Of a stretch of 37,388 bases of DNA, positions 6,283-36,476 are shown piece after piece. A program made the translations under genes and the position numbers. Position 1 is the first letter of the stretch; each line of letters starts with the position of its first letter. Source of the DNA: a virus; IMG/VR virus record IMGVR_UViG_3300013131_000111, positions 1 to 37,388 of that record, one strand, 5' to 3'. The notes beneath the pieces were generated by a model that ran no database searches, had not been told where the DNA came from, and saw nothing but the letters and a program-made list of their open reading frames with translations.

Positions 6283-6605
6283 TATTTTATGATCCAATCC
6301 ATATTCATCCAATCAGTATCTTCTGGCATCAGTTCAACGATATCACCATGTCGCTCTTGTAGCTGAGACCAAATATGTGCATTATTCATTCGAAGACAAT
6401 ATCCAGTCTTTCGGCACTCATAGCAAGATCCAGTTGAGCCATAGAACATAAACGCATGTTTAGTCTCTTCGACTCGAGTAATACCACTATTCATACGCCA
6501 AGAGTCACCGGTAGTGTAGCCACCAGACCAGCCAGCAAGAATGCGATAATGGGGATCGTCCCCTTTAATTTTGATTACGACCCAGTTATCAGGAGTGTAT
6601 GTCAT
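6282..6605 (-). CDS. Hypothetical protein, 107 aa, with Cys pair
   Basis: The product opens MTYTPDNWVVIKIKGDD and contains YRILAGWSGGYTTGDSWR followed by GSTGSCYECRKTGYCLR, where C-x-x-C and a third Cys could hold a metal. A similar small protein is seen in T4-like phages, function unknown. It overlaps the next gene upstream by 4 bp and couples to the downstream gene by TAATG. Confidence 0.7.
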   Translation of the reverse strand: MTYTPDNWVVIKIKGDDPHYRILAGWSGGYTTGDSWRMNSGITRVEETKHAFMFYGSTGSCYECRKTGYCLRMNNAHIWSQLQERHGDIVELMPEDTDWMNMDWIIK

Positions 6606-6802
6606 AGCCCTAATGCCTTCCTCATTTCATCTTGCGTGTCTTCTCGGCCAGCTCTGTATGCCATTCGGATCAACTCTGCAATTCTATTTGCAACACCTTC
6701 GTTTTGAGCCGGAAAGTTCCAATACTTCGATCTAACTCCCCAGCCGGTTCCGTGTTCAGACACATATGCTTCACACTCTAAAAATGGACTACGTTCGTTC
6801 AT
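6602..6802 (-). CDS. Hypothetical protein, 66 aa
   Basis: A 66-residue protein with a beta-like N-terminal half (FLECEAYVSEHGTGWGVRS) and an amphipathic helix (RIAELIRMAYRAGREDTQ). It overlaps both neighbours by 4 bp, inside the operon with the phosphoesterase gene. No family recognised. Confidence 0.65.
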   Translation of the reverse strand: MNERSPFLECEAYVSEHGTGWGVRSKYWNFPAQNEGVANRIAELIRMAYRAGREDTQDEMRKALGL

Positions 6803-7922: not shown

Positions 7923-7951
7923 ACTCTATACCATGAAGTTATAAATGTCAA
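7923..7951 (-). promoter_or_regulatory. sigma70-type promoter, TTGACA-17-TAGAGT
   Basis: -35 TTGACA at 7951-7946 and -10 TAGAGT at 7928-7923 (or TATAGA at spacing 15). It overlaps the last codons of the secreted nuclease gene and drives the HD hydrolase operon. Confidence 0.7.
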
Positions 7952-8706
7952 TCATAAATATTCGACCAATGCTCAGGATTTACGACTCCTTCAGAGTCTT
8001 CATCGAGCTGTGGAAAGATATTAAGCCCCGTGAGTTCTTCTACTCGATTCACGGTGGTAAGATACTTAGGCATATCTTTGACTGGAAGTTCAGCGTTTGG
8101 CATAAGATATGCAATGGTCGAGTCTGTTGCCTTATCATATACGACCTTCCAGAGGTACGTAGGAACACCTACTTTACCATCACCAATGGTCTTATAACCT
8201 TCTTCGTAGATCGTGCCAGATACTACATAGAGGTCACGATTCTCAAGCGCCCAGTTGCGCACCTTGAGTTCAAGCATCCGCCAGATACCACGATTGTTAT
8301 TTGGAACTTGCGGTACCATGTTTGAGAGGAAGAAGCTCTCACTCATAACTTCTTGGCTAGCTTTATTATTCGCGCCTGCTGACAAGTGTCCACGATCATA
8401 TGGCTCACCTGAGTAATCTTCAAGGCTTGCTGAGTGTTCTTTTGGAATTTGATAATCTGGCCGAAAATCGTCCCTGCGTTTAGCAACACCTGTAATATCT
8501 AAATTATCAAGATGTTCAACTACATACTCAGCGGTCTTTGTGTCATAGCGGTAATGAATTGCGTAGTTAGTATGGCATACATACTGAGTGTTTTCAGTAA
8601 TAGCCGAAATAGGAGCGCCGAAAATCACGTGCTGAGAACAGTTCTCATCAATAGGATTTGCGAAAGTAACAGATGGTATAAGAGCAAGAAGATAAAGTAA
8701 GCGCAT
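7948..8706 (-). CDS. Secreted DNA/RNA non-specific endonuclease (NUC1/EndA type)
   Basis: A 252-residue protein beginning with a Sec signal peptide (MRLLYLLALIPSVTFA, cleavage likely after Ala16), so the enzyme should reach the periplasm or outside. The catalytic D-R-G-H motif is in EPYDRGHLSAGANN, followed by SFFLSNMVPQ and NNNRGIW, in which Asn residues bind the Mg ion in this beta-beta-alpha-metal family. Four Cys are near the N-terminus. An exported nuclease in a phage could destroy incoming competitor DNA, digest extracellular DNA or feed nucleotides; none is shown here. Confidence 0.88.
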   Translation of the reverse strand: MRLLYLLALIPSVTFANPIDENCSQHVIFGAPISAITENTQYVCHTNYAIHYRYDTKTAEYVVEHLDNLDITGVAKRRDDFRPDYQIPKEHSASLEDYSGEPYDRGHLSAGANNKASQEVMSESFFLSNMVPQVPNNNRGIWRMLELKVRNWALENRDLYVVSGTIYEEGYKTIGDGKVGVPTYLWKVVYDKATDSTIAYLMPNAELPVKDMPKYLTTVNRVEELTGLNIFPQLDEDSEGVVNPEHWSNIYD

Positions 8707-9016: not shown

Positions 9017-9200
9017 TATGCTTCCTGCCCGAAAGGTAAGATTGCATTTCAAGAGTAAGTTCACGAATTCTAGGTTTTACCGAAACATCGTTATCACGAA
9101 TGAGCTTTTTCATAAGATTAGCTCGCTCTCTTCGCATATCTCCGATTTTTGATCCAACCCAGAGACCATTTACTACCTCATAGTTCTTTTCGTCGATCAT
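9009..9200 (-). CDS. Hypothetical protein, 63 aa
   Basis: A basic 63-residue protein with a predicted amphipathic helix (DMRRERANLMKKLIRD) and a second helix near the end. It overlaps both neighbours by 4-8 bp, the arrangement of a coupled operon. No family recognised. Confidence 0.6.
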   Translation of the reverse strand: MIDEKNYEVVNGLWVGSKIGDMRRERANLMKKLIRDNDVSVKPRIRELTLEMQSYLSGRKHNV

Positions 9201-9451
9201 GCAACCACCTTATCAAGAATTTTACTCAAGTTCTCAAGTACCCACTCTTTTGCAACAATGAGTTGTGCAGCATCACCTTGTACTTCGGCATCTTTAAACT
9301 TTGCTGCAGTCAACACAATGTTATAGTCGGTTGGTAGGCCCGCATCAACTTCGTATACAAAGAAGTCTGATTCTTTTGGCCTACAATATCTATATAGATA
9401 AGTGAAGGCCATAAAGTCTTCGAGGATATCAGTTATCACGCTTTCATCCAT
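9197..9451 (-). CDS. Hypothetical protein, 84 aa
   Basis: An acidic, mostly helical 84-residue protein with DILEDFMAFTYLYRY near the N-terminus and LIVAKEWVLENLSKIL at the end. It overlaps the C-terminal RNA ligase fragment upstream by 16 bp. No family recognised. Confidence 0.6.
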   Translation of the reverse strand: MDESVITDILEDFMAFTYLYRYCRPKESDFFVYEVDAGLPTDYNIVLTAAKFKDAEVQGDAAQLIVAKEWVLENLSKILDKVVA

Positions 9452-9936
9452 TCCATTAGAGCTTCATACTTCGGCGTCGAGCCGATGTTCTTCTTGCAGT
9501 GATCGAGGAGCAGGTCCCGAAGAACACAACCGTCGATCAGCCGGAAGATGAAGCCGCCGTCGGCCTTGTTGATCAGGTTTGGCACCATCTCAAGCGCGAT
9601 GCGCTTCTTGTCAGCACCATAAATCGTCCGTGCCAGCAACTCTAGACCTTCCAGTCGACCTTCAGCATTGCGGAAAGCTTCCCAGAAAGCTGCTTCGACT
9701 GCATCAACACGAGCTAAGTCCGACGGATCGAGCATAGCCCGAGTGTCGTCGATCGTTTCGTTCAGAACGAGCTCAACGATGTTACGATCAACTCGGACGA
9801 TGTCCTTGGTCTTGTGGATCTGCACATACTCATCGGCTTTGACCTTGAGCATGTGCCCGTCTGCAAACCGAATGATGATACCCTCTTCACCGCGAAGAGC
9901 CTTTACTTTTTCAAGAAGAGCTTCAATTTTCGTCAT
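9436..9936 (-). CDS. rnlA: RNA ligase 1, C-terminal half of a split gene
   Basis: A 166-residue product that continues where the gene at 10673-11329 stops. It holds nucleotidyltransferase motif IV (GEEGIIIRF) and motif V (MLKVKADEYVQIHKTKD) and then the all-helical C-terminal domain typical of T4 RNA ligase 1. The two fragments total 384 residues, close to the 374 of T4 RnlA. It has its own ATG with AAGAGA upstream and its own promoter, so it can be made separately. Whether the halves assemble into an active ligase is unknown. The plus-strand endonuclease gene at 10000-10713 lies between the halves. Confidence 0.8.
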   Translation of the reverse strand: MTKIEALLEKVKALRGEEGIIIRFADGHMLKVKADEYVQIHKTKDIVRVDRNIVELVLNETIDDTRAMLDPSDLARVDAVEAAFWEAFRNAEGRLEGLELLARTIYGADKKRIALEMVPNLINKADGGFIFRLIDGCVLRDLLLDHCKKNIGSTPKYEALMEWMKA

Positions 9937-9962
9937 CGTTGTCTCTTTTCACATGGTCTCGA

Positions 9963-9970
9963 TATAAATA
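9963..9970 (+). promoter_or_regulatory. T4-type late promoter octamer TATAAATA
   Basis: TATAAATA on the plus strand 30 bp before the ATG of the GIY-YIG gene, exactly the -10 element used by T4 late sigma gp55, which needs no -35. The same octamer precedes the other two homing endonuclease genes. Confidence 0.65.
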
Positions 9971-9998
9971 GACTATACTGATCGTTGGAGGATGTCAA
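9970..9998 (-). promoter_or_regulatory. sigma70-type promoter for the RNA ligase C-half
   Basis: -35 TTGACA at 9998-9993; -10 TAGTCT at 9975-9970 (spacing 17) or TATAGT at 9977-9972 (spacing 15). It overlaps the divergent late promoter and the ribosome binding site of the GIY-YIG gene, so the two directions may interfere. Confidence 0.6.
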
Positions 9999-9999
9999 C

Positions 10000-10713
10000 A
10001 TGTTTTTGCTGTACAAGACAACAAATTTGCTGAATGGTAAAGTGTACGTTGGTATTCATGAGTGTGGCGATACATGTCGACATCTTGTAGATTCTAAGTG
10101 TACGTACTTTGGGTCTGGCTCAGCCATTGGGCGGGCGCTGAAGAAGTACGGAAAGGAAAACTTTATACGAGAAACTTTAGCGGAATTTTCTACAGAGGCA
10201 CAAGTTCTCGCAGAAGAAGCACGTATCGTCGACAAAGCTTGGGTGAAGTCTTCTAATAACTACAACATGGCACTCGGAGGAGGTAAGCCGCCAAACCAAT
10301 CTGGCTTTAAGATGTCACAGAAAGCTAAAGAGAAGATCAGTGAAGCATCTAAGCAAAGATCACAAAGTTTGTCATATACAGCCAAGAAGACTATGGATGC
10401 TAGGGTTTCAACGGGTGGTTGGACTTCAGAAGAAATATCTAAAAGAGTCCAGACAAGAAGAACAACTGTTGGGTACTCGAGCGACATGACTGCATGTAAC
10501 ACCCAAGAATCTATAGCTAAACGTGTAGCTACTAAGAAGGCAAATGGTTACAAACAAGATGTATCTTACTTGCACTCAGAAGATGTTACTTTCCGCAAAA
10601 CAAGAACCAGGATCATCAACCAGATGAAGAAAGGCAAGACCTTCAATGAAGAGGTCTTGCTTAAGTACAACATTACTTCAGAAGATACTCAAGGTATTCT
10701 TCTACCGAGTTGA
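10000..10713 (+). CDS. GIY-YIG homing endonuclease inserted in the RNA ligase gene
   Basis: I place the start at ATG 10000, preceded by GGAGG at 9987-9991; a TTG at 9985 would lie on the ribosome binding site. The 237-residue protein opens with the GIY-YIG catalytic fold (LLYKTTNLLNGKVYVGIH, then GSGSAIGRALKKYGKENF and NMALGGGKPP), followed by a basic, Lys/Arg/Thr-rich DNA-binding region with modular repeats. It resembles T4 Seg proteins. It is the only plus-strand gene in the first 24 kb, is bracketed by the two halves of RNA ligase 1 and overlaps the end of the N-terminal half by 41 bp antisense. Confidence 0.85.
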   Translation: MFLLYKTTNLLNGKVYVGIHECGDTCRHLVDSKCTYFGSGSAIGRALKKYGKENFIRETLAEFSTEAQVLAEEARIVDKAWVKSSNNYNMALGGGKPPNQSGFKMSQKAKEKISEASKQRSQSLSYTAKKTMDARVSTGGWTSEEISKRVQTRRTTVGYSSDMTACNTQESIAKRVATKKANGYKQDVSYLHSEDVTFRKTRTRIINQMKKGKTFNEEVLLKYNITSEDTQGILLPS

Positions 10714-11329
10714 ATGTACGAACCAACTCAAAAGGTGCATCCCACTGACGCAAGCTACGGTACTCACCAGACACAGTCTCACGTATTGCAGTCAGGATCA
10801 ACTTGGCTTCGGTATATTCGACAACAATCTTGTTGGTCGGAGCAACATACTCGAAGATCGGTGTGAAGCCATCAATCATCATGTCCTCGAGCCAGTCATA
10901 CTGGCCAGGATCAAGAAGCTTCTCGGCTTCCATCGCGATGTCGGTCACACCCATCTTCGTAGCAAGACGAACCATGCCGTGCATACGAACCGGGCGAATC
11001 ATCGAACCGTCGAGCTTGTCCATCACAATGTGAGCACGAGTCAAGTCCAGTCGATGCGACTGGGTTTCTTCTTTCTCGTTTATGTTGAAGAACTTGTGGA
11101 ACGGACGAGACATGATGTTGCCTTCAGTGTCGAAGATCAGGCCGCGGCATTCACGACGAATGGCACCCATCACATCGTCAGGACCTTCCATCTTGAAAGT
11201 ATCAGGCATAGCGACGAGATAGTTGATCACCGTACCAAACTCACGTTCAGCAACAACGAACTCGTCACGACTAGCGATTGCCGGAAGAACGTCATTGATC
11301 GTACGAATTTCAGGGAACTGGTAGTGCAT
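10673..11329 (-). CDS. rnlA: RNA ligase 1, N-terminal half of a split gene
   Basis: A 218-residue fragment holding the first part of a T4 Rnl1-type ligase: the ECRGLIFD and RPFHKFFN segments, adenylation motif I with Lys105 in DKLDGSM (T4 uses Lys99), and motif III in PIFEYVAP. It stops with TAA just before the position where motif IV should follow; motifs IV and V are in the separate gene at 9436-9936. Rnl1 reseals tRNAs cut in the anticodon loop by host anticodon nucleases. Promoter at 11354-11382. The split falls inside the catalytic domain, so function depends on the halves meeting. Confidence 0.85.
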   Translation of the reverse strand: MHYQFPEIRTINDVLPAIASRDEFVVAEREFGTVINYLVAMPDTFKMEGPDDVMGAIRRECRGLIFDTEGNIMSRPFHKFFNINEKEETQSHRLDLTRAHIVMDKLDGSMIRPVRMHGMVRLATKMGVTDIAMEAEKLLDPGQYDWLEDMMIDGFTPIFEYVAPTNKIVVEYTEAKLILTAIRETVSGEYRSLRQWDAPFELVRTFNSVEEYLEYLLK

Positions 11330-11353
11330 AATGTACCTCTCTGTTACTCGATA

Positions 11354-11382
11354 GATATAAGTAATCTACTCGGGAATGTCAA
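11354..11382 (-). promoter_or_regulatory. sigma70-type promoter, TTGACA-17-TATATC
   Basis: -35 TTGACA at 11382-11377 and -10 TATATC at 11359-11354. It drives the RNA ligase N-half. Confidence 0.75.
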
Positions 11383-11398
11383 CCAGCAAAATGCAGAT

Positions 11399-11521
11399 TT
11401 ATGCGTTATCTGCGTACCAGACGATGAACTTCCACGAAGCAGCTTCGATCGCCTTGCCGAGGGCATAGAGCCCGCCGAACATGATGACGTTGGGGAGGAC
11501 GTAGTAGATGATGGTTTCCAT
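11399..11521 (-). CDS. Small membrane protein, 40 aa
   Basis: A short frame found by translating the gap: ATG at 11521 with AGGTG upstream, stop TAA. The product (METIIYYVLPNVIMF then GGLYALGKAIEAASW) has one hydrophobic segment across residues 4-24 followed by an amphipathic end. It starts one base after the stop of the 55-residue gene at 11523-11690, so the pair forms an operon. Function unknown. Confidence 0.6.
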   Translation of the reverse strand: METIIYYVLPNVIMFGGLYALGKAIEAASWKFIVWYADNA

Positions 11522-17531: not shown

Positions 17532-17649
17532 ATTTTTGTTTTAGACGATCGCAAAGTTCCAATTGTTTGCTCAACTGGTTTCGAAGATCGTTTGCTTTCC
17601 ATACTGCAGCCATCCACTCTACATATTCTTTCGAGCGAGTATCCATCAT
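17530..17649 (-). CDS. Hypothetical helical peptide, 39 aa
   Basis: ATG at 17649 overlaps the nadV stop (ATGATG), with AAGGTG just before. The 39 codons encode a charged helix (RSKEYVEWMAAVWKANDL then LSKQLELCDRLKQK). Its stop lies in the downstream hairpin. The coupling to nadV suggests it is real; function unknown. Confidence 0.5.
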   Translation of the reverse strand: MMDTRSKEYVEWMAAVWKANDLRNQLSKQLELCDRLKQK

Positions 17650-19073
17650 ACACCTTCCTTTGCACGTTCACGAATAGTTGCGAAGTCGTCTTCGATCAAA
17701 ATAATACCGTTGTGGTATACTTTACGAAGAAGGTTCTTTGCTGCGAACTCCCAGACGTAGTCTTCTGGTACAGTATGAATGTACGGGTTTACACCAAAGC
17801 CAGCCTCTTTCACGAGAGCCAAACGACCCTCTTTCGACTTCTTACCGTGGTCAGTGATTGGATCTTTCGAGAATCCTTTCCATTCGCCGTTAGCGCCTTT
17901 GATCGCCGAAGCTTTCATAGCATACTTAAGAGTATCACGGTTCCAAGCCTGCAGAAGACCACCACCCATACCGAATGCAATGTTATCGGCAGAAATGTTT
18001 TTCGCGATCATATTTTCCAGAATAATGGGCAACGACTTCTCGTTAATACCATCACCCTGAATTACACGAATGTAAGGAGGAAGAACTTTGAAACCCTTAC
18101 TGTTCACGGTGTAACCAAACTTCTCCATCAAGATCTCGATGATTTCGACTGGAACAGTCTCAGGGTCACCAGAGTCAGGGCGTACCACCAAGGTGCCGCC
18201 AGAAGCAATAATCTTATCTTTCAGAGCAGTACCCCAAAGATCTGAACATGCTTTGTAGATGTCGAAGCTGTCAGATACGCAAGCATAAAGTTTACCTTCA
18301 CCTGCGAACTGATTAATCATGTTGTCGTAAGCTTTCACTTCGTCTTCTCGACCCCAAGAAGTGATCGTCGAGTGTTCAGAAGCAGGAATCGAAAAGCCAA
18401 CGACTTCATCAGTGTTGTAGTATTCCATAACCCCGACAAGTGCTTCAGCCGTGTCAGTGCCCCAGAAGTTCACGAGGTGAGCCATACCACCAAGGATTGC
18501 GGTCTCACTTGAAGAAGCACCACGAGCACCGAAGTCATGCAACTTAAAGTTGATCTGAGCTTCTACCGGAACGTCAGACGTTTTCAATAGAGCAGCTTTG
18601 ATGATCTTCTTCATCTTACGTGACTTAGTCGCAACAGTCGAAGGGTACCAGACACCGCGCAGAAGTGCAGTCTCGAGGTATGAGGTCAGCCACCACAGGC
18701 GAGGATCAGTGTTCACCACCTGCACCTGAACGTTGTGAGTCGGCATAACCGTACCTTCAGGAACAGCTTCGATTTCAACAGGAAGCATGCCATCATATTC
18801 GTTGACGATAACTTCCCAGCCTTCACGGTTGAAAGGTAGACCGTGTGCAGTTACGATCTTCTCAGCACGGTCGACGTCCTCCATCGTGATAGGAGTCGTC
18901 ATGTAGTCTTTCATGAAAGCCTGAAGACCGAAAAAGACCGATTCATCTTCGCCACCACGAGATTCGATGTACGAAGACACATGAGTCGTGCCGGCAGGAT
19001 ACTGCACCCACTGTGAAAATTTGTAGCTGTCAGTGCGGATAATTGCGGAGATTAGATTTAGTACGTTTTTCAT
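17646..19073 (-). CDS. nadV: Nicotinamide phosphoribosyltransferase
   Basis: A 475-residue NAMPT, which joins nicotinamide to PRPP to give NMN. Diagnostic segments appear in order: TDSYKFSQWVQYPAG, FFGLQAF, FKLHDFGARGASS, the active-site His in SIPASEHSTITSWG, VRPDSGDP (PRPP phosphate region), VIQGDGINEKS and FGMGGGLLQ. The length equals that of bacterial and phage NadV. The NMN adenylyltransferase gene lies immediately upstream, giving a two-step route from nicotinamide to NAD+. The ribosome binding site sits in a small hairpin touching the start codon (19074-19090). Confidence 0.95.
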   Translation of the reverse strand: MKNVLNLISAIIRTDSYKFSQWVQYPAGTTHVSSYIESRGGEDESVFFGLQAFMKDYMTTPITMEDVDRAEKIVTAHGLPFNREGWEVIVNEYDGMLPVEIEAVPEGTVMPTHNVQVQVVNTDPRLWWLTSYLETALLRGVWYPSTVATKSRKMKKIIKAALLKTSDVPVEAQINFKLHDFGARGASSSETAILGGMAHLVNFWGTDTAEALVGVMEYYNTDEVVGFSIPASEHSTITSWGREDEVKAYDNMINQFAGEGKLYACVSDSFDIYKACSDLWGTALKDKIIASGGTLVVRPDSGDPETVPVEIIEILMEKFGYTVNSKGFKVLPPYIRVIQGDGINEKSLPIILENMIAKNISADNIAFGMGGGLLQAWNRDTLKYAMKASAIKGANGEWKGFSKDPITDHGKKSKEGRLALVKEAGFGVNPYIHTVPEDYVWEFAAKNLLRKVYHNGIILIEDDFATIRERAKEGV

Positions 19074-19090
19074 AATAGAGCTCCTCTATT
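19074..19090 (-). promoter_or_regulatory. Hairpin enclosing the nadV ribosome binding site
   Basis: A 7-bp inverted repeat (19074-19080 with 19084-19090) folds the GAGGAG of the nadV leader into a stem ending directly at the AUG. Such a structure could limit initiation until ribosomes translating upstream open it. Two further small stems lie between it and the nadM stop. Confidence 0.5.
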
Positions 19091-19134
19091 GTTAGGTTGA
19101 TGCCAACTCTCTCTGAGCTGGGCTTTATCGGTTA

Positions 19135-20148
19135 TTAGCCGATATTGATAAAGTTGTCGATGATGTGGAAGTGATCCTCAAACATTTTTTCTTGTTTGAC
19201 CTTGTTAAAGGGCACCCAGAACGCTTTAGCTGCATCATCAGAACCTTTCACTTTCGGCAGTTCGCCGACACCAAGATCGATCAAGAACGCTTGAGTGATA
19301 GTGCGGCCACGAGAAGAACGATTCGGAGCATCGAAGGTCTTAGACTCTTTGATAGAACCCTTCAGAACAGGAAGGGGAACCTTGATCTTGGTTTCTTCCT
19401 TGAGCTCACGGATAGCACCATCGAGCATTGTCTCTTCTTGGTTCAAGAACCCGCCCGGAAGAGCCCAAAGCCCTTTGCCCGGCATGTCACCGCGCTCGAC
19501 AAGAAGGATGTGACCCGATTGTACAACGACCGCGTCGACAGTCATGAACGTCGGAGGGAATGGCGCAGCTTTCCAAGCCTCCTTGTACTTCTTGACCATT
19601 TGGTATTCGTTGTACAGAGTATCCCAGTAGCCACCGATCTTTCCACCTGCGATGATGACTCTGTTCATTGCATCACGTGCAGCGTCAGGCATATTGTCAA
19701 GAGCCGCGAAGTCGCAGTTGCCGAACAGGCAGTTACGAATGTCGGTCGCGTTGATACCACCAACGTCTGCGACTTCCACGTGGTTCTTCCAACGCGGGAA
19801 GATTTCCAAGTAGTAGCTGGTGCTATCCTTCGAGTGACCGATCAGACCGATGTCTTCAGCATCAGGCACAGTGGATTCAACGATTCGCATAATCGCATTG
19901 ATCCACTTGTTATCATCATACGGGTAGTCAGAGACTGGAACGACTTTTACACGATCAGTCGGGAACACCGCTTCGATCATCGCCTTGCGTTCTTGGAATG
20001 TAAAAGGATTTCGAATGTTGCGAGCTGCGAAACTGGAACCGACGACTACGACGACTTCCTTTGCTTGCTCAAGCGCGGCTTCGATAACCGCTTTGTGTCC
20101 ATTGTGGAAGGGCTGGAACCGCCCGATAAAAACGAGTGCGTCACGCAT
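19135..20148 (-). CDS. nadM: Bifunctional NMN adenylyltransferase / Nudix hydrolase
   Basis: The start is ATG 20148 with GGAG 7 nt upstream; 337 residues. The N-terminal domain is a NadM-type nucleotidyltransferase (FIGRFQPFHNGHKAVI, VVVVGSSFAARNIRNPF, IGLIGHSKDS, GGINATDIRN). The C-terminal domain (from about residue 200) is Nudix, with the box GGFLNQEETMLDGAIRE then LKEETKI. The adenylyltransferase makes NAD+ from NMN and ATP; Nudix partners of this type are linked to ADP-ribose hydrolysis. It is transcribed with nadV. Confidence 0.93.
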   Translation of the reverse strand: MRDALVFIGRFQPFHNGHKAVIEAALEQAKEVVVVVGSSFAARNIRNPFTFQERKAMIEAVFPTDRVKVVPVSDYPYDDNKWINAIMRIVESTVPDAEDIGLIGHSKDSTSYYLEIFPRWKNHVEVADVGGINATDIRNCLFGNCDFAALDNMPDAARDAMNRVIIAGGKIGGYWDTLYNEYQMVKKYKEAWKAAPFPPTFMTVDAVVVQSGHILLVERGDMPGKGLWALPGGFLNQEETMLDGAIRELKEETKIKVPLPVLKGSIKESKTFDAPNRSSRGRTITQAFLIDLGVGELPKVKGSDDAAKAFWVPFNKVKQEKMFEDHFHIIDNFINIG

Positions 20149-20171
20149 GCAAAAACTCCTTTTGCTACTAT

Positions 20172-20194
20172 GTAGGAGCCTCACTGGCTCCTAC
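20172..20194 (-). promoter_or_regulatory. 9-bp hairpin in the nadM leader
   Basis: Arms 20172-20180 and 20186-20194 pair perfectly around a 5-nt loop, about 20 nt before the nadM ribosome binding site and just after the predicted transcription start. It may protect the 5' end of the message. Confidence 0.55.
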
Positions 20195-30568: not shown

Positions 30569-30573
30569 CGATT

Positions 30574-30647
30574 GGTGCTGAAGGAGAGAATCGAACTCTC
30601 ATCGATGGGATACGAAGCCATTGTAATACCACTATACTACGTCAGCA
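30574..30647 (-). tRNA. tRNA-Thr (anticodon CGT)
   Basis: Cloverleaf with CCA encoded. Acceptor pairs 6 of 7 (6-67 mismatch), T-arm perfect 5 bp. Loop TTCGTAT gives CGT, reading ACG; the stem closes with a C-C mismatch at 31-39. Confidence 0.8.
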
Positions 30648-30653
30648 TGAATT

Positions 30654-30728
30654 GGTGCTGCAAGAGGGAATCGAACCCCCGACCTGATGCTTACAAGGCA
30701 ACTGCTCTACCGACTGAGCTACTACAGC
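30654..30728 (-). tRNA. tRNA-Thr (anticodon TGT)
   Basis: Full cloverleaf with CCA encoded; loop CTTGTAA gives TGT, reading ACA. Confidence 0.9.
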
Positions 30729-30735
30729 GTTATTT

Positions 30736-30808
30736 TGGAGCGGGTAGCCAGAATCGAACTGGTCTCCTACAGCTTGGAAGGCTGCCTGGCTACCATAGCC
30801 TTACCCGC
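30736..30808 (-). tRNA. tRNA-Gly (anticodon TCC)
   Basis: Full cloverleaf with CCA encoded; acceptor 7 bp perfect; loop CTTCCAA gives TCC, reading GGA. A TATAAATA box ends 9 bp upstream. Confidence 0.9.
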
Positions 30809-30816
30809 GTTATTCT

Positions 30817-30824
30817 TATTTATA
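30817..30824 (-). promoter_or_regulatory. T4-type late promoter octamer before tRNA-Gly
   Basis: TATAAATA on the minus strand, so the last three tRNAs could also be made late in infection. Confidence 0.55.
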
Positions 30825-30990
30825 CTTCTCGCTCCGACCAGTCCATTTAGAGTTTGGACAAACTTGGGGCTAAAAAGCCACTCCACCACCTGCTTTTACG
30901 AAAGCAGGAAAATTCGTCAGGATCGTTTTGTCCGCTAAGACATCGAATATTATTTAGCGTTTTTGTTTGCTGAACCGATCCTATCTCTTA
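30825..30990 (-). ncRNA. Candidate structured RNA between endonuclease and tRNA-Gly
   Basis: No reading frame is supported. In the minus-strand RNA there are several stems: CGCTAA/TTAGCG, GGATCG/CGATCC, an 8-bp hairpin CCTGCTTT/AAAGCAGG with CGTA loop, GGCT/AGCC and GTCC/GGAC. A promoter (30996-31024) inside the endonuclease 3' end fires directly into it. It could be a small RNA or a processed leader of the tRNAs. Confidence 0.4.
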
Positions 30991-31616
30991 CGACTTTTAT
31001 ACCATCCTTCTGGTATAATGTCAACATCTTTTTTGATCTTCTTGTTCTCTTTACCGTCCGTTATCCACATCGTGCCGAACTGAGAATTTGAAGAACCAAC
31101 ATTCTTTGACTTACGCAACTTTTGTATCGTATCTTCTGAATGCTTCTTTCCTGTAAAGCCTCTACTGTTTTTGCCACCTAGAGAAGAATGAATTTTTCTT
31201 TTAGTTACAAAGTCATCATCTGTTTCCATAAGTCTTTTTATAACTCGTGCAGCTGCAGCAGATGCCTTTTTAGAAAAATTTGGATCTAACCTTCTTTGTT
31301 CATCTAAAGATACAGACTTTCCACTCATGTTCAGATAACCAAATCCACCATTACCTCCTGGGCAAAGGTTGTAAGTGTCTTCTCTTAAGCAGAACTCTTC
31401 TGTTACCAACAGAGCTTCTTTAGCATTCATATCAGCTTCATTATCAAACTGGAAGAGAATTTCTTTCGTAAAGTTCTCGATTCCATGTTTGTTTTGAGCA
31501 GATTTTAGATGTTTACCAGAACCCATGTAACCATCATTCAAGTCTTTGGTCTGATGTTTTCCAATATAGATCTCGCCATTGATTAGGTTAGTGATCTTGT
31601 AGATTGTGTAGAACAT
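30981..31616 (-). CDS. GIY-YIG homing endonuclease (Seg-like)
   Basis: A 211-residue free-standing endonuclease: the GIY-YIG domain TIYKITNLINGEIYIGKH then GYMGSGKHLKSAQNKHG and YNLCPGGNGGFG, followed by a basic C-terminal DNA-binding region with HSEDTIQKLRKSK, the NUMOD-type repeat. It sits between tRNA-Gly and tRNA-Pro, as T4 seg genes sit among tRNAs. It has its own TATAAATA box (31649-31656). About 35% of the sequence layout parallels the second GIY-YIG protein at 10000-10713, judged only by shared motifs. Confidence 0.85.
   Translation of the reverse strand: MFYTIYKITNLINGEIYIGKHQTKDLNDGYMGSGKHLKSAQNKHGIENFTKEILFQFDNEADMNAKEALLVTEEFCLREDTYNLCPGGNGGFGYLNMSGKSVSLDEQRRLDPNFSKKASAAAARVIKRLMETDDDFVTKRKIHSSLGGKNSRGFTGKKHSEDTIQKLRKSKNVGSSNSQFGTMWITDGKENKKIKKDVDIIPEGWYKSRKR
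30996..31024 (-). promoter_or_regulatory. sigma70-type promoter inside the endonuclease gene, TTGACA-17-TATAAA
   Basis: -35 TTGACA at 31024-31019 and -10 TATAAA at 31001-30996, in the last codons of the GIY-YIG gene. It drives the structured RNA and tRNAs Gly, Thr, Thr. Confidence 0.75.
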
Positions 31617-31648
31617 TGTTTGTACTCATAGTTTTATGCCTTCGCTAC

Positions 31649-31656
31649 TATTTATA
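31649..31656 (-). promoter_or_regulatory. T4-type late promoter octamer before the GIY-YIG gene
   Basis: TATAAATA on the minus strand 32 bp before the endonuclease ATG. Confidence 0.65.
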
Positions 31657-31674
31657 CAAACAATGTTCTCTGTG

Positions 31675-31748
31675 TCCGGATGGTGGGACTCGAACTCACG
31701 ACCTACGGTACCCAAAACCGTCGCGCTACCAGACTGCGCTACACCCGG
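31675..31748 (-). tRNA. tRNA-Pro (anticodon TGG), no CCA encoded
   Basis: Acceptor 7 bp with the C1-G72 pair typical of tRNA-Pro, A73, then CAC instead of CCA. Loop TTTGGGT gives TGG. The missing CCA requires a CCA-adding enzyme. Confidence 0.85.
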
Positions 31749-31866
31749 ATTATTCTTTGACGTACTCTCCCGTCTGAGTCACCTGGTGCCATCAGGTCAG
31801 AGTCAGTATAATCACCCAAACTAGTAATAGTCTTGCAGGGTTTTGGCGTATCTGACTACGCATATT
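31749..31866 (-). other. Gap of 118 bp with a 5-bp hairpin
   Basis: Between tRNA-Pro and tRNA-Trp no frame or tRNA is seen; ACCTG/CAGGT arms at 31781-31785 and 31793-31797 form a hairpin. Possibly a tRNA remnant or processing signal. Confidence 0.35.
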
Positions 31867-31941
31867 TGGCAGGGGCCGTGGGAATTGAACCCACTTCTCA
31901 AGGTTTTGGAGACCTGCGGATTACCACTTTCCTTGACCCCT
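31867..31941 (-). tRNA. tRNA-Trp (anticodon CCA), first copy
   Basis: CCA encoded; A1-T72 and G73 as in tRNA-Trp; loop CTCCAAA gives CCA. A second, different tRNA-Trp lies at 35532-35606. Confidence 0.85.
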
Positions 31942-31949
31942 ATAATCTT

Positions 31950-32024
<75 letters not shown>

Positions 32025-32429
32025 ATAAACTATTTGTCCATTGTACACCCGCAACGGACTAACGACTTGATAGGGTGACCCTCAGACTGAGTAGTTGAAC
32101 TTCTGACATCTTTTAATGTTCAACTTCTACGTGCCAACTCGTCTTCTCATGGTGTCGTCTTAACTTTATTCTCTGTTTTCAACGATACACCACCAAAGCG
32201 CTTGAAGCCCGAAGAGGTGGCAACAGCTACTATGTCTACCCGCTTACATCTTTCGAATGGTGCACGTAGTGTATCTATGAAAACAGAGTACTCGTTATAA
32301 CACTATTTATATTCGGGTCTTACGGGTTTGTCCCTGCCCGATAATCAACTGGAACTTCTACCTTCATGATCTCGGATCGTCGTGGTTTTCTTGTTCCTTA
32401 CTATTACAATCTATACTATTCTACAGGAA
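32025..32429 (-). ncRNA. 400-bp non-coding stretch with long-range stems; candidate RNA
   Basis: No supported frame longer than 15 codons. The minus-strand RNA can fold 32288-32278 onto 32181-32171 (11 bp) and 32274-32269 onto 32190-32185 (6 bp), closing a 118-nt domain, followed by a 7-bp hairpin (GTTGAAC/GTTCAAC) and an 8-bp hairpin (GTCCGTTG with CAATGGAC). A sigma70-type promoter lies at its upstream end and a TATAAATA box (32304-32311) lies just before the 118-nt domain. No known RNA family was recognised. Confidence 0.5.
32304..32311 (-). promoter_or_regulatory. T4-type late promoter octamer before the structured RNA
   Basis: TATAAATA on the minus strand, 16 bp before the first stem of the 118-nt domain. 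Confidence 0.55.
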
Positions 32430-32435
32430 TGTCAA
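32408..32435 (-). promoter_or_regulatory. sigma70-type promoter, TTGACA-16-TAGATT
   Basis: -35 TTGACA at 32435-32430 and -10 TAGATT at 32413-32408; reads into the non-coding stretch and tRNAs Asn, Trp, Pro. Confidence 0.65.
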
Positions 32436-32659
32436 CTACTATTTTTAGTTTTTCGCACTTTTTTCTTTTGATCTTGCATGAGGTGTAAATGCTTTTGATA
32501 CAAGTGTTCTTCTTCTTGTTCTTCGCGAGTCTCGCGAATCGCTTTAATTGTTTTGATCAATTTACGATGCGCTCGAGCGACGAGTGATCGTTGGAATCGA
32601 TCTTTACGAGAAGGTTTTTCGAAATGGATTTCTACGTCTTCAGTAGTTACTTCAGTCAT
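32432..32659 (-). CDS. Hypothetical basic helical protein, 75 aa
   Basis: ATG 32659 is preceded by GAGGTGA. The protein is very charged: an acidic start (TEVTTEDVEIHFEKPS), then a long basic helix (RFQRSLVARAHRKLIKTIK) and Glu/Lys-rich coiled coil. It lies between tRNA-Ser and the non-coding RNA region. Function unknown; the composition suggests RNA contact. Confidence 0.65.
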   Translation of the reverse strand: MTEVTTEDVEIHFEKPSRKDRFQRSLVARAHRKLIKTIKAIRETREEQEEEHLYQKHLHLMQDQKKKVRKTKNSS

Positions 32660-32682
32660 AACATCACCTCATTGTTGTTATA

Positions 32683-32770
32683 TGGCGGATGGAGGAGGAA
32701 TCGAACCCCATAGGTTTCCCTATGAACCGCTTTCCAGGCGGCCTCCCGCGCCAGCTAGGAGACTCCATCC
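32683..32770 (-). tRNA. tRNA-Ser (anticodon GGA)
   Basis: Type II tRNA with long variable arm (ATAGG/CCTAT), G73, CCA encoded; loop CTGGAAA gives GGA. Confidence 0.9.
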
Positions 32771-32794
32771 ATACTTTGAGGTTTGCTATATTTA

Positions 32795-32882
32795 TGGCAG
32801 AAGGTAGAAGCATCGAACTTCTGACGAATTAACGTCACCCGGGCTTTCGAGACCCGTTGAGGAGCCAACCTCGGTACCTTCC
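32795..32882 (-). tRNA. tRNA-Ser (anticodon CGA)
   Basis: Type II with variable arm TGACG/CGTCA, G73, CCA encoded; loop CTCGAAA gives CGA. Confidence 0.9.
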
Positions 32883-32886
32883 ATAT

Positions 32887-32976
32887 TGGCGGATACGGCA
32901 GGATTTGAACCTGCGGACCCCTTTCGGGATCGACGGTTTAGCAAACCGCTGGTTTAAGCCACTCACCCACGTATCC
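32887..32976 (-). tRNA. tRNA-Ser (anticodon GCT)
   Basis: Type II with long variable arm, acceptor 7 bp perfect, G73, CCA encoded; loop TTGCTAA gives GCT. Confidence 0.9.
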
Positions 32977-32980
32977 AATA

Positions 32981-33343
32981 TTATCCAGCAGATCGAGTAA
33001 TGAAGTTCAATCTGATCTTTTCTGGGCTAAAGTACTTAGCGATAAGTTCTTCTGCAATCTTTACGTCAACAGTCTTGCACGAGAAGATGTCAATATATGC
33101 ATCACCATTTGAGTCAACAAGATGCCCAGAGATATTGCTTGTCTCGATCATCTGAATAAAGCTGATACCAGCCTTGTCAGGTGCATGTGTAGCAAAATGC
33201 TCGATCATTGGTTCGCCATATGCAATCATATCGATCGCTGGCACCAACTCTTTAATGAAGTTGTAAACGTTTTCTTTGCTTGTAATTTTGTCAATGTCAC
33301 ATGCGGCGCAGTCGAACATTGCGTGATAGCCCCAATAAGCCAT
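32981..33343 (-). CDS. speD: S-adenosylmethionine decarboxylase-like (SpeD) proenzyme
   Basis: The start is ATG 33343 (GGAGG 5 nt upstream); 120 residues. The pattern fits the short bacterial/phage SpeD class: WGYHAMFDCAACD at the N-terminus, IAYGEPMIEHFATH, and QMIETSNISGHLVDS followed by AYIDIFSCK. Ser69 after Glu67-Thr68 is the probable self-cleavage site that becomes the pyruvoyl cofactor, and Cys89 matches the conserved Cys. Classic SpeD makes decarboxylated AdoMet for spermidine; some homologs have changed to ornithine or arginine decarboxylases, so substrate is open. It lies alone among tRNAs. Confidence 0.8.
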   Translation of the reverse strand: MAYWGYHAMFDCAACDIDKITSKENVYNFIKELVPAIDMIAYGEPMIEHFATHAPDKAGISFIQMIETSNISGHLVDSNGDAYIDIFSCKTVDVKIAEELIAKYFSPEKIRLNFITRSAG

Positions 33344-33361
33344 AGTATCCTCCATTATTGT

Positions 33362-33438
33362 TGGTGCCCTTGGTGAGACTCGAACTCACACTTTCCGGAG
33401 TTTGAAGCCGGTGACTCTACCAATTGGCCTACAAGGGC
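33362..33438 (-). tRNA. tRNA-Leu-like (anticodon CAA) with short variable arm
   Basis: Acceptor GCCCTTG/CAAGGGC perfect, A73, CCA encoded, 5-nt variable loop. With a 7-nt loop TTCAAAC the anticodon is CAA (reads UUG, Leu) and the stem closes with C31-T39. If the loop is read as 9 nt the triplet would be TCA. It shares its D-arm with the tRNA at 33741. Confidence 0.6.
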
Positions 33439-33439
33439 G

Positions 33440-33715
33440 TTATCTACGATTGTCTTTCAGTTGCTCGAGAACTCGTTTCGCCTTTTCACGAAACGCTGCA
33501 TCAGTAACGGTATCAGAGTCAACGTCATTGCGAAGAGTGTACTTGATGCCTTCGTACCGATACAGCGCTTCTTCCATCGCCGAAGCATGAAACTGAATCC
33601 GCTCAACTGTTGCTTTGAGCATCGAGAAATCGTACGTTTCTAACATCTTTCGAATAGTATCAAGTTCGGAACAAATGTAACGGTTCACATCAATTGTGTA
33701 CGGTACTTTCGACAT
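33440..33715 (-). CDS. Hypothetical helical protein, 91 aa
   Basis: The start is ATG 33715 with GAGG upstream; the longer frame runs into tRNA. The 91-residue product is helical (DTIRKMLETYDFSMLKATV, HASAMEEALYRYEGIKY) and ends just 2 bp before tRNA-Leu. No family recognised. Confidence 0.65.
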   Translation of the reverse strand: MSKVPYTIDVNRYICSELDTIRKMLETYDFSMLKATVERIQFHASAMEEALYRYEGIKYTLRNDVDSDTVTDAAFREKAKRVLEQLKDNRR

Positions 33716-33740
33716 CTCATCCTCATTTTGATTTTGAATT

Positions 33741-33816
33741 GGTGCGGATAGAGGGACTCGAACCCCCAACATGCGCGTTCTAAGCGCGCCGACTCTACCA
33801 ATTGGCCTATATCCGC
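33741..33816 (-). tRNA. tRNA-Leu-like (anticodon TAG) with short variable arm
   Basis: Acceptor 7 bp, A73, CCA encoded. Stem GCGCG/CGCGC and loop CTTAGAA clearly give TAG (reads CUA, Leu), but the variable loop has only 5 nt, whereas bacterial tRNA-Leu has a long arm. Confidence 0.75.
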
Positions 33817-33921
33817 GATATCTGGTCGGTTTTAAGTTATCCGAAAACTATCAACCCATACTATGCCCAAGCAGCTTGGAAGCCGGCTATCTATTCTCTG
33901 GTTGTCCGAACATTCGATCTT
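33817..33921 (-). other. Gap of 105 bp, nothing recognised
   Basis: Between tRNA-Leu and tRNA-Val; no frame. A GGCTTCCAAGCTGCTTGG stretch recalls an anticodon arm but no cloverleaf forms. Confidence 0.3.
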
Positions 33922-33997
33922 TGGTGCGGAATGAGAGGGTCGAACTCCCGACATCTTCGGTGTAAACGAAGCGCTACTACCACTGAGCTAATTCCGC
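33922..33997 (-). tRNA. tRNA-Val (anticodon TAC)
   Basis: Regular cloverleaf with perfect acceptor and CCA; loop TTTACAC gives TAC, reading GUA. Its 5' 10 nt overlap the end of the gene at 33988-34161. Confidence 0.9.
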
Positions 33998-34161
33998 TTA
34001 AGTTTATTCCTCAAGTCATTCAGACTTGTTTCTCTTTGCTGTGCTTCTACGTTAACCTTTGGTTCTTCGACATCATTATGAATGACTGCATTACCTTCAA
34101 TTCGGCTTCGCAACTCAGCAATTCGTTTACGTAAAGAAGCAATTTCAGTTTGAAAATCCAT
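33988..34161 (-). CDS. Hypothetical coiled-coil protein, 57 aa
   Basis: ATG 34161 with GGAG 5 nt upstream; 57 codons. The first half is a heptad-like helix (EIASLRKRIAELRSRIEG). The last codons and TAG lie inside the 5' end of tRNA-Val, so the message and tRNA cannot both be kept intact after processing. Function unknown. Confidence 0.6.
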   Translation of the reverse strand: MDFQTEIASLRKRIAELRSRIEGNAVIHNDVEEPKVNVEAQQRETSLNDLRNKLKRN

Positions 34162-34175
34162 TGCATCTCCAATTT

Positions 34176-34249
34176 TGGCGACCTATGAGGGACTCGAACC
34201 CTCTTCACCCGGTGGACAGCCGAGCGTAATACCCATATACGAATAGGCC
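34176..34249 (-). tRNA. tRNA-Asp (anticodon GTC)
   Basis: CCA encoded, G73; loop CTGTCCA gives GTC. Confidence 0.9.
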
Positions 34250-34260
34250 AATTCTTGTTT

Positions 34261-34289
34261 AATCTATACTATCTACTTGGTAGTGTCAA
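34261..34289 (-). promoter_or_regulatory. sigma70-type promoter, TTGACA-17-TAGATT
   Basis: -35 TTGACA at 34289-34284 and -10 TAGATT at 34266-34261; starts 12 bp before tRNA-Asp. Confidence 0.7.
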
Positions 34290-34533
34290 CTACTTTTTTC
34301 AAGTAGTCGTAAGTTTCTTCATAAGTCTTAAAGACCTTCGTTCCATGCTTGCTCATGACTCTCACTGACGATCCAAAGCATTGAACACGTCCAAAACCTG
34401 GGTACCTACCGTTGCCAAGGAATCGAGAGTTCCATCGGGTACGGCGACGTACAGGATCATGAAACAGATGAGGTATGCTAAGAATAGTGCTGCAATTTGC
34501 ATAGAACTCTTCTTTCTCTTGAATTGTTTTCAT
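34273..34533 (-). CDS. Hypothetical phage protein, 86 aa
   Basis: The start is ATG 34533; the longer frame is tRNA sequence. The product contains DPVRRRTRWNSRFLGNGRY then PGFGRVQCFGSSVRVMS and KTYEETYDYLKK, a pattern recalled from uncharacterised T4-like phage proteins. Basic middle and acidic end; no ribosome binding site is obvious. Located between tRNA-Gly and tRNA-Asp. Confidence 0.65.
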   Translation of the reverse strand: MKTIQEKEEFYANCSTILSIPHLFHDPVRRRTRWNSRFLGNGRYPGFGRVQCFGSSVRVMSKHGTKVFKTYEETYDYLKKVVDTTK

Positions 34534-34544
34534 ATTATACTTTC

Positions 34545-34619
34545 TGGAGCGGAGAATGGGGATCGAACCCACGACCATCTCGTTGGCAACGAGAAGCTCT
34601 ACCACTGAGCTACCTCCGC
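34545..34619 (-). tRNA. tRNA-Gly (anticodon GCC)
   Basis: Regular cloverleaf, CCA encoded; loop TTGCCAA gives GCC. Confidence 0.92.
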
Positions 34620-34625
34620 GTTATT

Positions 34626-34664
34626 TGGTGGACCCTAGCGGGATCGAACCGCTAACTCCTAATT
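34626..34664 (-). pseudogene. 3' half of a split tRNA-Ala (positions 37-76)
   Basis: The sequence starts at AA then TTAGG (3' side of the anticodon stem), a 4-nt variable loop, a perfect T-arm and acceptor strand AGGGTCC with A73 and CCA. The acceptor pairs with the 5' half at 35287-35322 over all 7 positions, including G3-T70, the alanine identity pair. The halves are separated by the HNH element and a complete tRNA-Ala. Confidence 0.85.
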
Positions 34665-35240
34665 TATGGTGGAGGATAAGGGAGTCGAACCCTTGACTCT
34701 GCCTTGCAAGGGCAGCGTGTTCCCACTAGCACCAATCCCCCATTTGTCTTTTACTAATTCCTCAATCAAAGGAACTACTTCATTTGACCATTTACTATGA
34801 ACCATTTCGTGATGATTTGGACATAAGGGTATCAAATTTTTTGGTTCATTATTGTAATGATTTTCATCAATGTGATGAACCGCAACTACTTTATCAAATC
34901 CACAAATTGCACATTCACATTTCCAATTTTGAAATGCTATAGTTCTGTAGTGTGTAGCATTATCCTTCCACCATTCTTGCCTATTGTTTGCGCAAGACCT
35001 AGAGCAATAATACTTATCTTTCTGAGGATGAAGTTTTTCTCGTTCTGTTACTAAAAACTTATTAGAACAACATAAACATTCAACTTCAAATTCCTTTAAT
35101 TCACCAAACTGACTAATAGTTCCTTGCGCTTTATTCCAATTATCCCTTTTAGGATTATGTTCACACCAACGACTATGATTAGCCTTTTCCGAAGTAGTTG
35201 AGAAATTAAACTCTATTTTGCAATGTTTGCATTTCCACAT
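34659..35240 (-). CDS. HNH homing endonuclease running into a tRNA-Ala gene
   Basis: ATG 35240 with AGGAGG 8 nt upstream and TATAAATA at 35264. The 193-residue protein has zinc-finger-like Cys pairs (C4/C7, LCCSNKF, CAICGFD) and the HNH core VVAVHHIDENHYNNEPKN then LIPLCPNHHEMVHS. The last 25 or so codons coincide base for base with the complete tRNA-Ala at 34667-34741, and the stop lies in the split tRNA's 3' half, so the original C-terminus was probably replaced. It is the mobile part of the insertion into tRNA-Ala. Confidence 0.85.
   Translation of the reverse strand: MWKCKHCKIEFNFSTTSEKANHSRWCEHNPKRDNWNKAQGTISQFGELKEFEVECLCCSNKFLVTEREKLHPQKDKYYCSRSCANNRQEWWKDNATHYRTIAFQNWKCECAICGFDKVVAVHHIDENHYNNEPKNLIPLCPNHHEMVHSKWSNEVVPLIEELVKDKWGIGASGNTLPLQGRVKGSTPLSSTIN
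34667..34741 (-). tRNA. tRNA-Ala (anticodon TGC), complete, carried by the HNH element
   Basis: Acceptor GGGGGAT/ATCCTCC with G3-T70, A73 and CCA; loop CTTGCAA gives TGC. Its D-arm differs from that of the split tRNA-Ala, so it is not a copy of it. It lies entirely in the reading frame of the HNH gene. Confidence 0.88.
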
Positions 35241-35263
35241 TCGAATTACCTCCTATTATGGAG

Positions 35264-35271
35264 TATTTATA
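35264..35271 (-). promoter_or_regulatory. T4-type late promoter octamer before the HNH gene
   Basis: TATAAATA on the minus strand, 24 bp before the HNH ATG and only 16 bp after the split point of tRNA-Ala. Confidence 0.65.
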
Positions 35272-35286
35272 ATTCGCATATTTTCA

Positions 35287-35322
35287 GCAAATCAGGCGCT
35301 CTCCCAACTGAGCTAAGAGCCC
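35287..35322 (-). pseudogene. 5' half of a split tRNA-Ala (positions 1-36)
   Basis: Exactly 36 nt: acceptor GGGCTCT, D-arm GCTC/GAGC, anticodon stem CCTGA and loop TTTGC, ending with the anticodon TGC. Its missing half is at 34626-34664. Confidence 0.85.
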
Positions 35323-35356
35323 GAAACTATCTAGAGGGGACCTATTCCTCTAGCAG

Positions 35357-35426
35357 GTAGATGATGCGTGATCGCCTCAACGAGTCAGGTCGAGAACTCT
35401 CAGCAGTGATCAGTGGGATCATCTAC
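35357..35426 (-). ncRNA. 9-bp inverted repeat closing a 70-nt structure
   Basis: Arms 35357-35365 and 35418-35426 are perfect complements. A second stem, TAGAGG/CCTCTA, lies just below it. The gap 35323-35431 holds no gene. Candidate small RNA or a tRNA-processing structure upstream of tRNA-Ala 5' half. Confidence 0.4.
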
Positions 35427-35431
35427 AATAT

Positions 35432-35524
35432 TGGCAGAGAGCGGGTGGTATCGAACCCCAACCGGGTACTAGCCGGTCCACTAGTTTTCAAGACTAGGCT
35501 GCAGACCTCTGCAGATCACTCTCC
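35432..35524 (-). tRNA. tRNA-Ser (anticodon TGA)
   Basis: Type II with long variable arm, G73, CCA encoded; loop CTTGAAA gives TGA. The fourth tRNA-Ser of the array. Confidence 0.88.
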
Positions 35525-35531
35525 ATGGAAT

Positions 35532-35606
35532 TGGCACCAGTGGAAGGAATCGAACCCTCTACGCGCGGTTTTGGAGACCGCCGCTCTACCACTGAGCTAC
35601 ACCGAT
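35532..35606 (-). tRNA. tRNA-Trp (anticodon CCA), second copy
   Basis: A1-T72, G73, CCA encoded; stem GCGGT/ACCGC with loop CTCCAAA. Differs from the first tRNA-Trp in the D-arm and stems. Confidence 0.88.
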
Positions 35607-35674
35607 ATAAAATTTCAGCCGGTGAATTCTTTTGTACGTGCGGCCGGATCCGTCACAATTTCTGACTAAAGACA

Positions 35675-35747
35675 AAACTGTAATAGGGATCGAACCCATA
35701 TCTCCCCGCCGTTCCGCAAGGCGTGCTATCCATTGCACCATACAGTC
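35675..35747 (-). tRNA. tRNA-like, probable Arg (GCG), irregular
   Basis: Acceptor GACTGTA/TACAGTT, D-arm GTGC/GCAC and T-arm are good, but the 3' end lacks CCA, position 73 is T, and the anticodon arm has only a 4-bp stem CGCC/GGCG around a 9-nt loop TTGCGGAAC. U33 rules suggest GCG. May be a decaying gene. Confidence 0.5.
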
Positions 35748-35962
35748 TACTAGTTCGCTTTCTCGGCAAAGACTGCTACTGTAGTTCTCTAGTCAAGGCA
35801 ATTGCCGCTGCCTATATAAATTCCTGGGCATCTCGCAATTGGGACTCTTACCCCTGCATCCAAGCTATGACTCAGACCGTGTTTCCCGATACGCCGAGTA
35901 GCCCTGTGGCGTATGTAGTGTTCTCATTGTAGTAGATGTCGACCTCTTCTACAACGTTTTAT
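35748..35962 (-). ncRNA. 215-bp gap with hairpins; candidate RNA
   Basis: No frame or tRNA. A 7-bp hairpin (35889-35895 with 35908-35914), a 6-bp hairpin (35927-35932 with 35949-35954) and the 10-bp palindrome GGCAATTGCC lie here in the minus-strand RNA. Possibly a small RNA or degraded tRNA genes. Confidence 0.35.
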
Positions 35963-36035
35963 TGGTGCTCCTGGAATGAGTCGAACATTCGTAAGCAGGC
36001 TTCGTAGACCCGCCACCGGATCCGCCGGCAGAAGC
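35963..36035 (-). tRNA. tRNA-Arg (anticodon ACG)
   Basis: Acceptor GCTTCTG/CAGGAGC, A73, CCA encoded; loop CTACGAA gives ACG. Wobble reading of CGC/CGA would require host TadA to make inosine. Confidence 0.82.
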
Positions 36036-36036
36036 G

Positions 36037-36342
36037 TTATGGCATATAAAGACCTTCGATCTGTGGATCAACAATCATTTCAGGCATGTCATCAATCCAA
36101 ACATCGATATTAATCTTGTGAACGTGAAGCATAAAGTCTCGTTTAGGGCGTAGGCCTGTTCCGAAGCAATTCTCAGCACCGATGATACGACCAATAGTAT
36201 ACTTGGGATCATCCATGTGTTGAATGCCACGAGCAGATACACAGTAAACTTTATGTCCACGGTCAAGAGCTTGTTGTGCGAACCAATTCCACAACAGTGG
36301 ATCTTTGGTGTAGGTGTCATCGTAGTCAATCGAGATATTCAT
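36037..36342 (-). CDS. HAD-like phosphatase, 101 aa
   Basis: The start is ATG 36342 with GGAG 6 nt upstream. The N-terminus ISIDYDDTYTKDP has the HAD nucleophile pattern D-x-D-x-T, followed by VYCVSARGIQH (motif II Ser) and a C-terminal IDVWIDDMPEMIVDP (motif IV Asp pair). It is short, with no visible cap, and resembles the T4-like phage phosphatase-like proteins. The substrate is unknown; an RNA 3'-phosphatase partner for the 5'-kinase is a speculative option. Own promoter. Confidence 0.75.
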   Translation of the reverse strand: MNISIDYDDTYTKDPLLWNWFAQQALDRGHKVYCVSARGIQHMDDPKYTIGRIIGAENCFGTGLRPKRDFMLHVHKINIDVWIDDMPEMIVDPQIEGLYMP

Positions 36343-36471: not shown

Positions 36472-36476
36472 GTTAT

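Follow-up and report, generated by a model that had tools for sequence, protein, structure and literature searches.

A phage RNA ligase 1 gene in two pieces, probably divided by a Seg-like GIY-YIG endonuclease gene on the opposite strand

How does an RNA ligase come to be encoded in two pieces, and can the pieces still act as one enzyme? The question is raised by a stretch of 37,388 nucleotides of viral DNA (IMG/VR record IMGVR_UViG_3300013131_000111, positions 1 to 37,388; hereafter the window), for which an earlier note had claimed that the gene for RNA ligase 1 is divided by a GIY-YIG gene on the opposite strand. Analysis of the open reading frames and of their Pfam and PHROG matches supported this claim. 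On the minus strand, a 218-residue N-half (10673-11329) and a 166-residue C-half (9436-9936) both resemble RnlA; between them, on the plus strand, lies the gene of a free-standing Seg-like GIY-YIG homing endonuclease of 237 residues (10000-10713). The N-half matches Pfam RNA_lig_T4_1 (E=7e-21) and positions 47-204 of PHROG 562 (RnlA; E=5e-44). It contains the nucleotidyltransferase motifs I (KLDGS), III and IIIa, and its end corresponds to residue 218 of the intact protein. The C-half starts at about residue 209 and comprises the junction helix, motifs IV (EG) and V (KxK) and the C-terminal domain. It matches PHROG 562 at positions 215-371 (of 377; E=1e-19), which indicates an Rnl1-type C-terminal domain, and T4_Rnl1_C at E=2e-4, under the Pfam curated cut-off. 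For both halves, the best solved match by sequence is T4 Rnl1, with the N-half aligning to chain residues 52-193 and the C-half to 218-297. Given the PHROG 562 matches and the T4 Rnl1 alignments, the two halves tile one RnlA. The alignment to T4 Rnl1, which the earlier note had proposed as a check, thus assigned both fragments to RnlA and neither to another protein, and it agreed with the invariant residues in placing motifs I and III in one gene and IV and V in the other. The summed halves amount to 384 residues, versus 374-376 in the closest intact relatives. As for an intact second rnlA, which by the same note would refute its claim if the fragments had decayed, none is present in the 37,388 nt of the window or in a 195-kb relative.

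The intact relatives that the earlier note had suggested looking for were found in IMG/VR. In phages L001/L018 and L019/L020, the whole of RnlA is encoded by one ORF, 374 or 376 codons long, with no endonuclease gene, and the small ORFs flanking it are those that flank the split gene in the window. The downstream one, a conserved ORF of 84 residues (9197-9451, minus strand), aligns with its counterparts in L001 and L019 (dN/dS 0.07 versus L019) and thereby identifies the window locus as that of the intact relatives. L001/L018 are 82% and 84% identical to the window in the two halves. Given that these close relatives possess an uninterrupted rnlA in the same neighbourhood and lack the insert, the split is a derived insertion. 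Two IMG/VR profile scans, one with the whole protein and one with the C-half, yielded 80 loci each (160 in total, many on the same contigs). None of the 160 loci had this split, and the exceptions to an uninterrupted gene were contig-end truncations and the frameshifted L226. All of the 60 best phage records encode rnlA in a single piece, and no relative was found in the bacterial genome collection. The window is therefore the sole example of such a split found in the IMG/VR scans and the 60 best phage records. The rnlA of L226 (2466-3480) is frameshifted and gapped at about residues 84-103, due to either decay or a sequencing error.

Where the gene was broken could be located on a model of the intact protein. 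The L001 model (pLDDT 94) has T4 Rnl1 as its top structural match, and the junction corresponds to a helix at residues 212-220, between the sheet of motif IIIa and the strand of motif IV. The C-half modelled alone with AF2 (pLDDT 93) keeps this helix at residues 4-12, together with the strands of motifs IV and V. As the N-half reaches the equivalent of residue 218, ending cleanly within the linker helix, and the C-half begins at about 209, each half has its own version of the helix. The similar stretch that the earlier note had seen at the junction (EYLEYLLK / EALLEKVKAL) is accordingly one structural helix present twice, once per half. At the DNA level there is no target-site duplication at the junction: the helix-coding stretches are identical at about 10 of 30 nt by hand count. 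The linker helix region is among the least conserved parts of RnlA in 44 relatives, so that the insert occupies a tolerant site. Around the junction, DNA identity between the window and L001 falls to 0.27-0.57, which resembles a conversion tract. The intact relatives also diverge from one another there, so that the local divergence alone is no proof of co-conversion; no close donor was found, and we do not claim a co-conversion tract from an identifiable donor. In intact L001 itself, positions 6550-6740 (rnlA codons ~190-245) have a GC3 of 0.36 versus 0.65 elsewhere, as if replaced by recombination.

The C-half was further claimed to have gained an ATG, a ribosome-binding site and a promoter, and motif search and reading of the sequence located candidates for all three. 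A predicted promoter of the phage early type (TTGACA, 15 nt, TATAGT; 9970-9998, minus strand) lies inside the endonuclease leader, about 36 nt before the C-half ATG (9936-9934), and is followed by a purine-rich putative ribosome-binding stretch, AAAAGAGAC (9941-9949, minus strand). The phage's own promoter motif TTGACAT...TATANT has 25 matches in the window versus 4.3 expected, and the form with a 15-nt spacer is also found at 37021-37049, upstream of tRNA genes. Owing to this spacer of 15 nt, the C-half promoter was missed by a generic sigma-70 scan. The N-half is preceded by the original rnlA promoter, TTGACAT...TTATATC (11354-11382, minus strand), which the alignment with L001 and L019 showed to be common to the intact relatives. 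On the plus strand, a T4-type late promoter, TATAAATA (9963-9970), ends 29 nt before the ATG of the endonuclease; this motif occurs 8 times in the window versus 0.96 expected. It lies within 60 nt upstream of the gene in 18 of 59 endonuclease relatives, versus 0.8 expected from a mononucleotide-shuffle control. Many GIY-YIG genes (L031, L033, L043, L049, L052, L055 and others) have the motif at most 60 nt from the ATG, and in several of them it stands only a few bases before the ATG, which predicts near-leaderless late transcripts.

The endonuclease itself has a full-length open frame with a GIY-YIG catalytic domain. It matches PHROG 314 (homing endonuclease) at E=5e-31 and SegE_GIY-YIG at E=2.5e-4, slightly under the Pfam cut-off. 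Judged by the Shine-Dalgarno sequence GGAGG at 9987-9991, its start is likely the ATG at 10000 rather than the TTG at 9985. At the other end, its frame and that of the N-half meet tail to tail and share 41 bp (10673-10713). A relative of this endonuclease in L026 (4001-5735) meets an intact rnlA tail to tail, with 35 bp common to both frames; this endonuclease family thus occurs beside rnlA in the same orientation. A second GIY-YIG gene in the window (30981-31616) is 38% identical to the rnlA-splitting endonuclease over 94 residues, too little for a recent copy, and this candidate was rejected.

These features enable us to propose a putative mechanism, in which we have considerable confidence. 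A free-standing Seg-like GIY-YIG gene would have entered rnlA on the opposite strand, in the variable linker helix between motifs IIIa and IV, leaving two genes. The old rnlA promoter would still serve the N-half, and for the C-half a new phage-type promoter, with a ribosome site and an ATG, would be provided by the short divergent stretch in which the endonuclease gene also has its start. The two polypeptides would then join non-covalently into one RNA ligase 1. Given that the active site is incomplete in either half alone, such an assembly is most likely. We infer that the endonuclease caused the split and is a cutter of intact rnlA.

None of the 30 residues that are invariant among the 44 intact relatives has been lost: the N-half accounts for 20 of them, with KxDGS among these, and the C-half for the other 10, with EG and KxK. 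Motifs I, III, IIIa, IV and V are found across both halves jointly. Compared with L001, the N-half has a dN/dS of 0.108 and the C-half one of 0.123; between two intact C-halves the value is 0.118, and the C-half has no surplus of amino-acid changes on the window's side. The kept catalytic and invariant residues, the constraint on both halves and the break in a tolerant linker favour an assembly of the halves, which together would probably act as an RNA ligase. A recent knock-out, by which the endonuclease would have disabled rnlA, leaving two dead remnants in a phage that copes without the enzyme, would be consistent with the dispensability of T4-type rnlA in hosts without anticodon nucleases. 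Moreover, as a single example was found, the split could be recent, possibly too young for visible decay, and most of the constraint measured here could stem from the time of the intact gene. Against it, both halves are open with the full set of invariant residues, their dN/dS has the low level seen between intact genes, a promoter motif, a ribosome site and an ATG are in place for the C-half, and the N-half ends cleanly inside the linker helix. We thus regard a knock-out as unlikely.

The order of events might also be the reverse, with rnlA split earlier by another event and the endonuclease settling in the gap afterwards. Event order is unreadable from one genome, and the same kind of doubt has been raised for gene 43, for which a split followed later by the endonuclease was proposed in phages 25 and 44RR (PMC2988022). 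However, no split rnlA free of an endonuclease was seen among the IMG/VR profile-scan loci. In addition, 41 bp of the endonuclease frame belong also to the N-half, and the leader of the endonuclease contains the C-half promoter, both of which suggest a single event. A split before the endonuclease therefore seems very improbable. Hardly credible is a removal of the interruption, by which a group I/II intron (in RNA) or an intein (in protein) carrying the endonuclease would be spliced out to restore an intact ligase: phage endonucleases are often located in introns and inteins, and the rnlA of L012, L272 and L273 is broken by split inteins, but an intron around the endonuclease was rejected by an Rfam scan of 9300-11400 (E<=5) with only chance-level matches to unrelated RNA families, an intein was rejected as neither the N-half nor the C-half matches a Hint/intein domain, the insert is nearly filled by the antisense endonuclease frame, and the product of the N and C ORFs joined as they are would be too long by about 10 residues, the linker helix being in both halves.

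The split inteins of the other phages mark a different way of breaking the same gene. In L012/L013, L272 and L273, rnlA is fractured exactly at motif I, between the G and the S of K-x-D-G-S. Of the 155 positions of Intein_splicing, those up to about 91-93 close the N part and those from about 120 to 155 open the C part, with HN directly before the S. A Vsr-like endonuclease gene is located between the parts. In the related phage L012 (5965-8634; also L013, L268 and L269), the gene is split between KMDG and S and the endonuclease is on the opposite strand. In the more distant L272 (2404-4939) and L273 (3020-4945; L274 is the same), the break is at the same motif I site and the endonuclease is on the same strand, truncated-looking in L273. 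With three other phage lineages having a split intein at this catalytic motif, rnlA is a repeated target. The gap to the C part of L012 contains TATAAATA pointing outward for the endonuclease and TTGACA-N17-TATGGT pointing inward for the C part. Given the weak statistical support for these motifs in L012 alone, this likeness to the layout of the window is only a lead.

The earlier note had mentioned genes split by endonucleases in nrdA and DNA polymerase, and both cases are documented. The pieces of NrdA of Aeromonas phage Aeh1 (mobE insertion) reassemble into a working enzyme, those of the phage 25 DNA polymerase (gene 43/gp43; seg43) can work, with reassembly reported, and T4 genes 39/60 (mobA) are a further gene in pieces (PMC2988022). 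As in these three cases, the window has a free-standing endonuclease gene between halves that each have a putative start of their own, a whole gene in relatives, and neither intron nor intein. It differs from them in the gene, which is RNA ligase 1, and in the endonuclease, which is of the GIY-YIG type whereas those of mobE and mobA are HNH, and which is antisense with a late promoter and a leader holding the promoter of the downstream half. Reassembly, reported for NrdA and gp43, is probable for the halves in the window. Compared to T4 RNA ligase 1 (Rnl1, gp63), the window product has the same motifs and two-domain plan and the T4 enzyme as top structural match, but it is encoded by two genes with a break at about T4 residues 193-217. 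The endonuclease resembles T4 SegA-G in a GIY-YIG domain that fits the SegE model, in being free-standing by its likely target gene and in the TATAAATA late promoter upstream; unlike SegA-G, which lie between genes, it sits within a coding region. Dassa et al. in 2009 reportedly described fractured genes that combine split inteins with a free-standing endonuclease, and that paper and Friedrich 2007 are said to be the two founding papers. Like such fractured genes, the window gene consists of two parts on either side of an endonuclease gene, but its halves have no intein parts. Where the split-intein rnlA is broken at motif I and accompanied by a Vsr-like endonuclease, the window gene is broken at the linker and has a GIY-YIG endonuclease.

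In the literature searched, the term 'split RNA ligase' occurs in no paper, and nothing relevant was found in titles, abstracts and passages on rnlA together with homing endonucleases or on RNA ligase together with split inteins. Within that literature, the principle of genes in pieces made by endonucleases is already known, and no earlier report was found for RNA ligase. The case differs from the known ones in its antisense endonuclease, in a predicted promoter within the insert that would serve the downstream half, and in the junction helix that both halves retain. More speculatively, the insert might be a portable gene-splitting cassette, consisting of an antisense endonuclease whose leader would supply both its own late promoter and, for the downstream half, an early promoter and a start. 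We consider this reading doubtful; if it is true, a host gene could survive cutting without an intron or intein.

The surroundings of the split gene bear on what the ligase might do. Besides 25 tRNAs, the window encodes a CCA-adding enzyme and a polynucleotide-kinase-like protein, a setting that fits the use of the ligase in tRNA repair. Judged by its family, the ligase probably mends cleaved tRNAs and may also take part in tail-fibre attachment, as T4 gp63 does. The 25 predicted tRNA genes form a cluster at 30573-37383, among which are the second GIY-YIG gene, with TATAAATA upstream, and an HNH endonuclease ORF (34659-35240), whose 3' end overlaps a predicted tRNA-Ala (34667-34741). Elsewhere in the window, a nicotinamide phosphoribosyltransferase gene adjoins an NMN adenylyltransferase/Nudix-type gene (17646-20184), forming a phage NAD salvage pair. 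A DNA/RNA non-specific endonuclease (7948-8706; Endonuclease_NS, 2e-48) has a signal-peptide-like start, which is unusual beside repair genes.

In summary, the insertion of a Seg-like homing endonuclease gene probably made a two-piece RNA ligase in this phage. RNA ligase 1, which repairs nucleic acids and serves as a reagent in the laboratory, would then be one of very few phage enzymes known to be cut in two by a selfish endonuclease yet apparently retained. Together with the split-intein forms, rnlA has been fractured by at least two different routes. The position of the split, in the linker helix, also hints at where a two-piece, switchable RNA ligase could naturally be divided.
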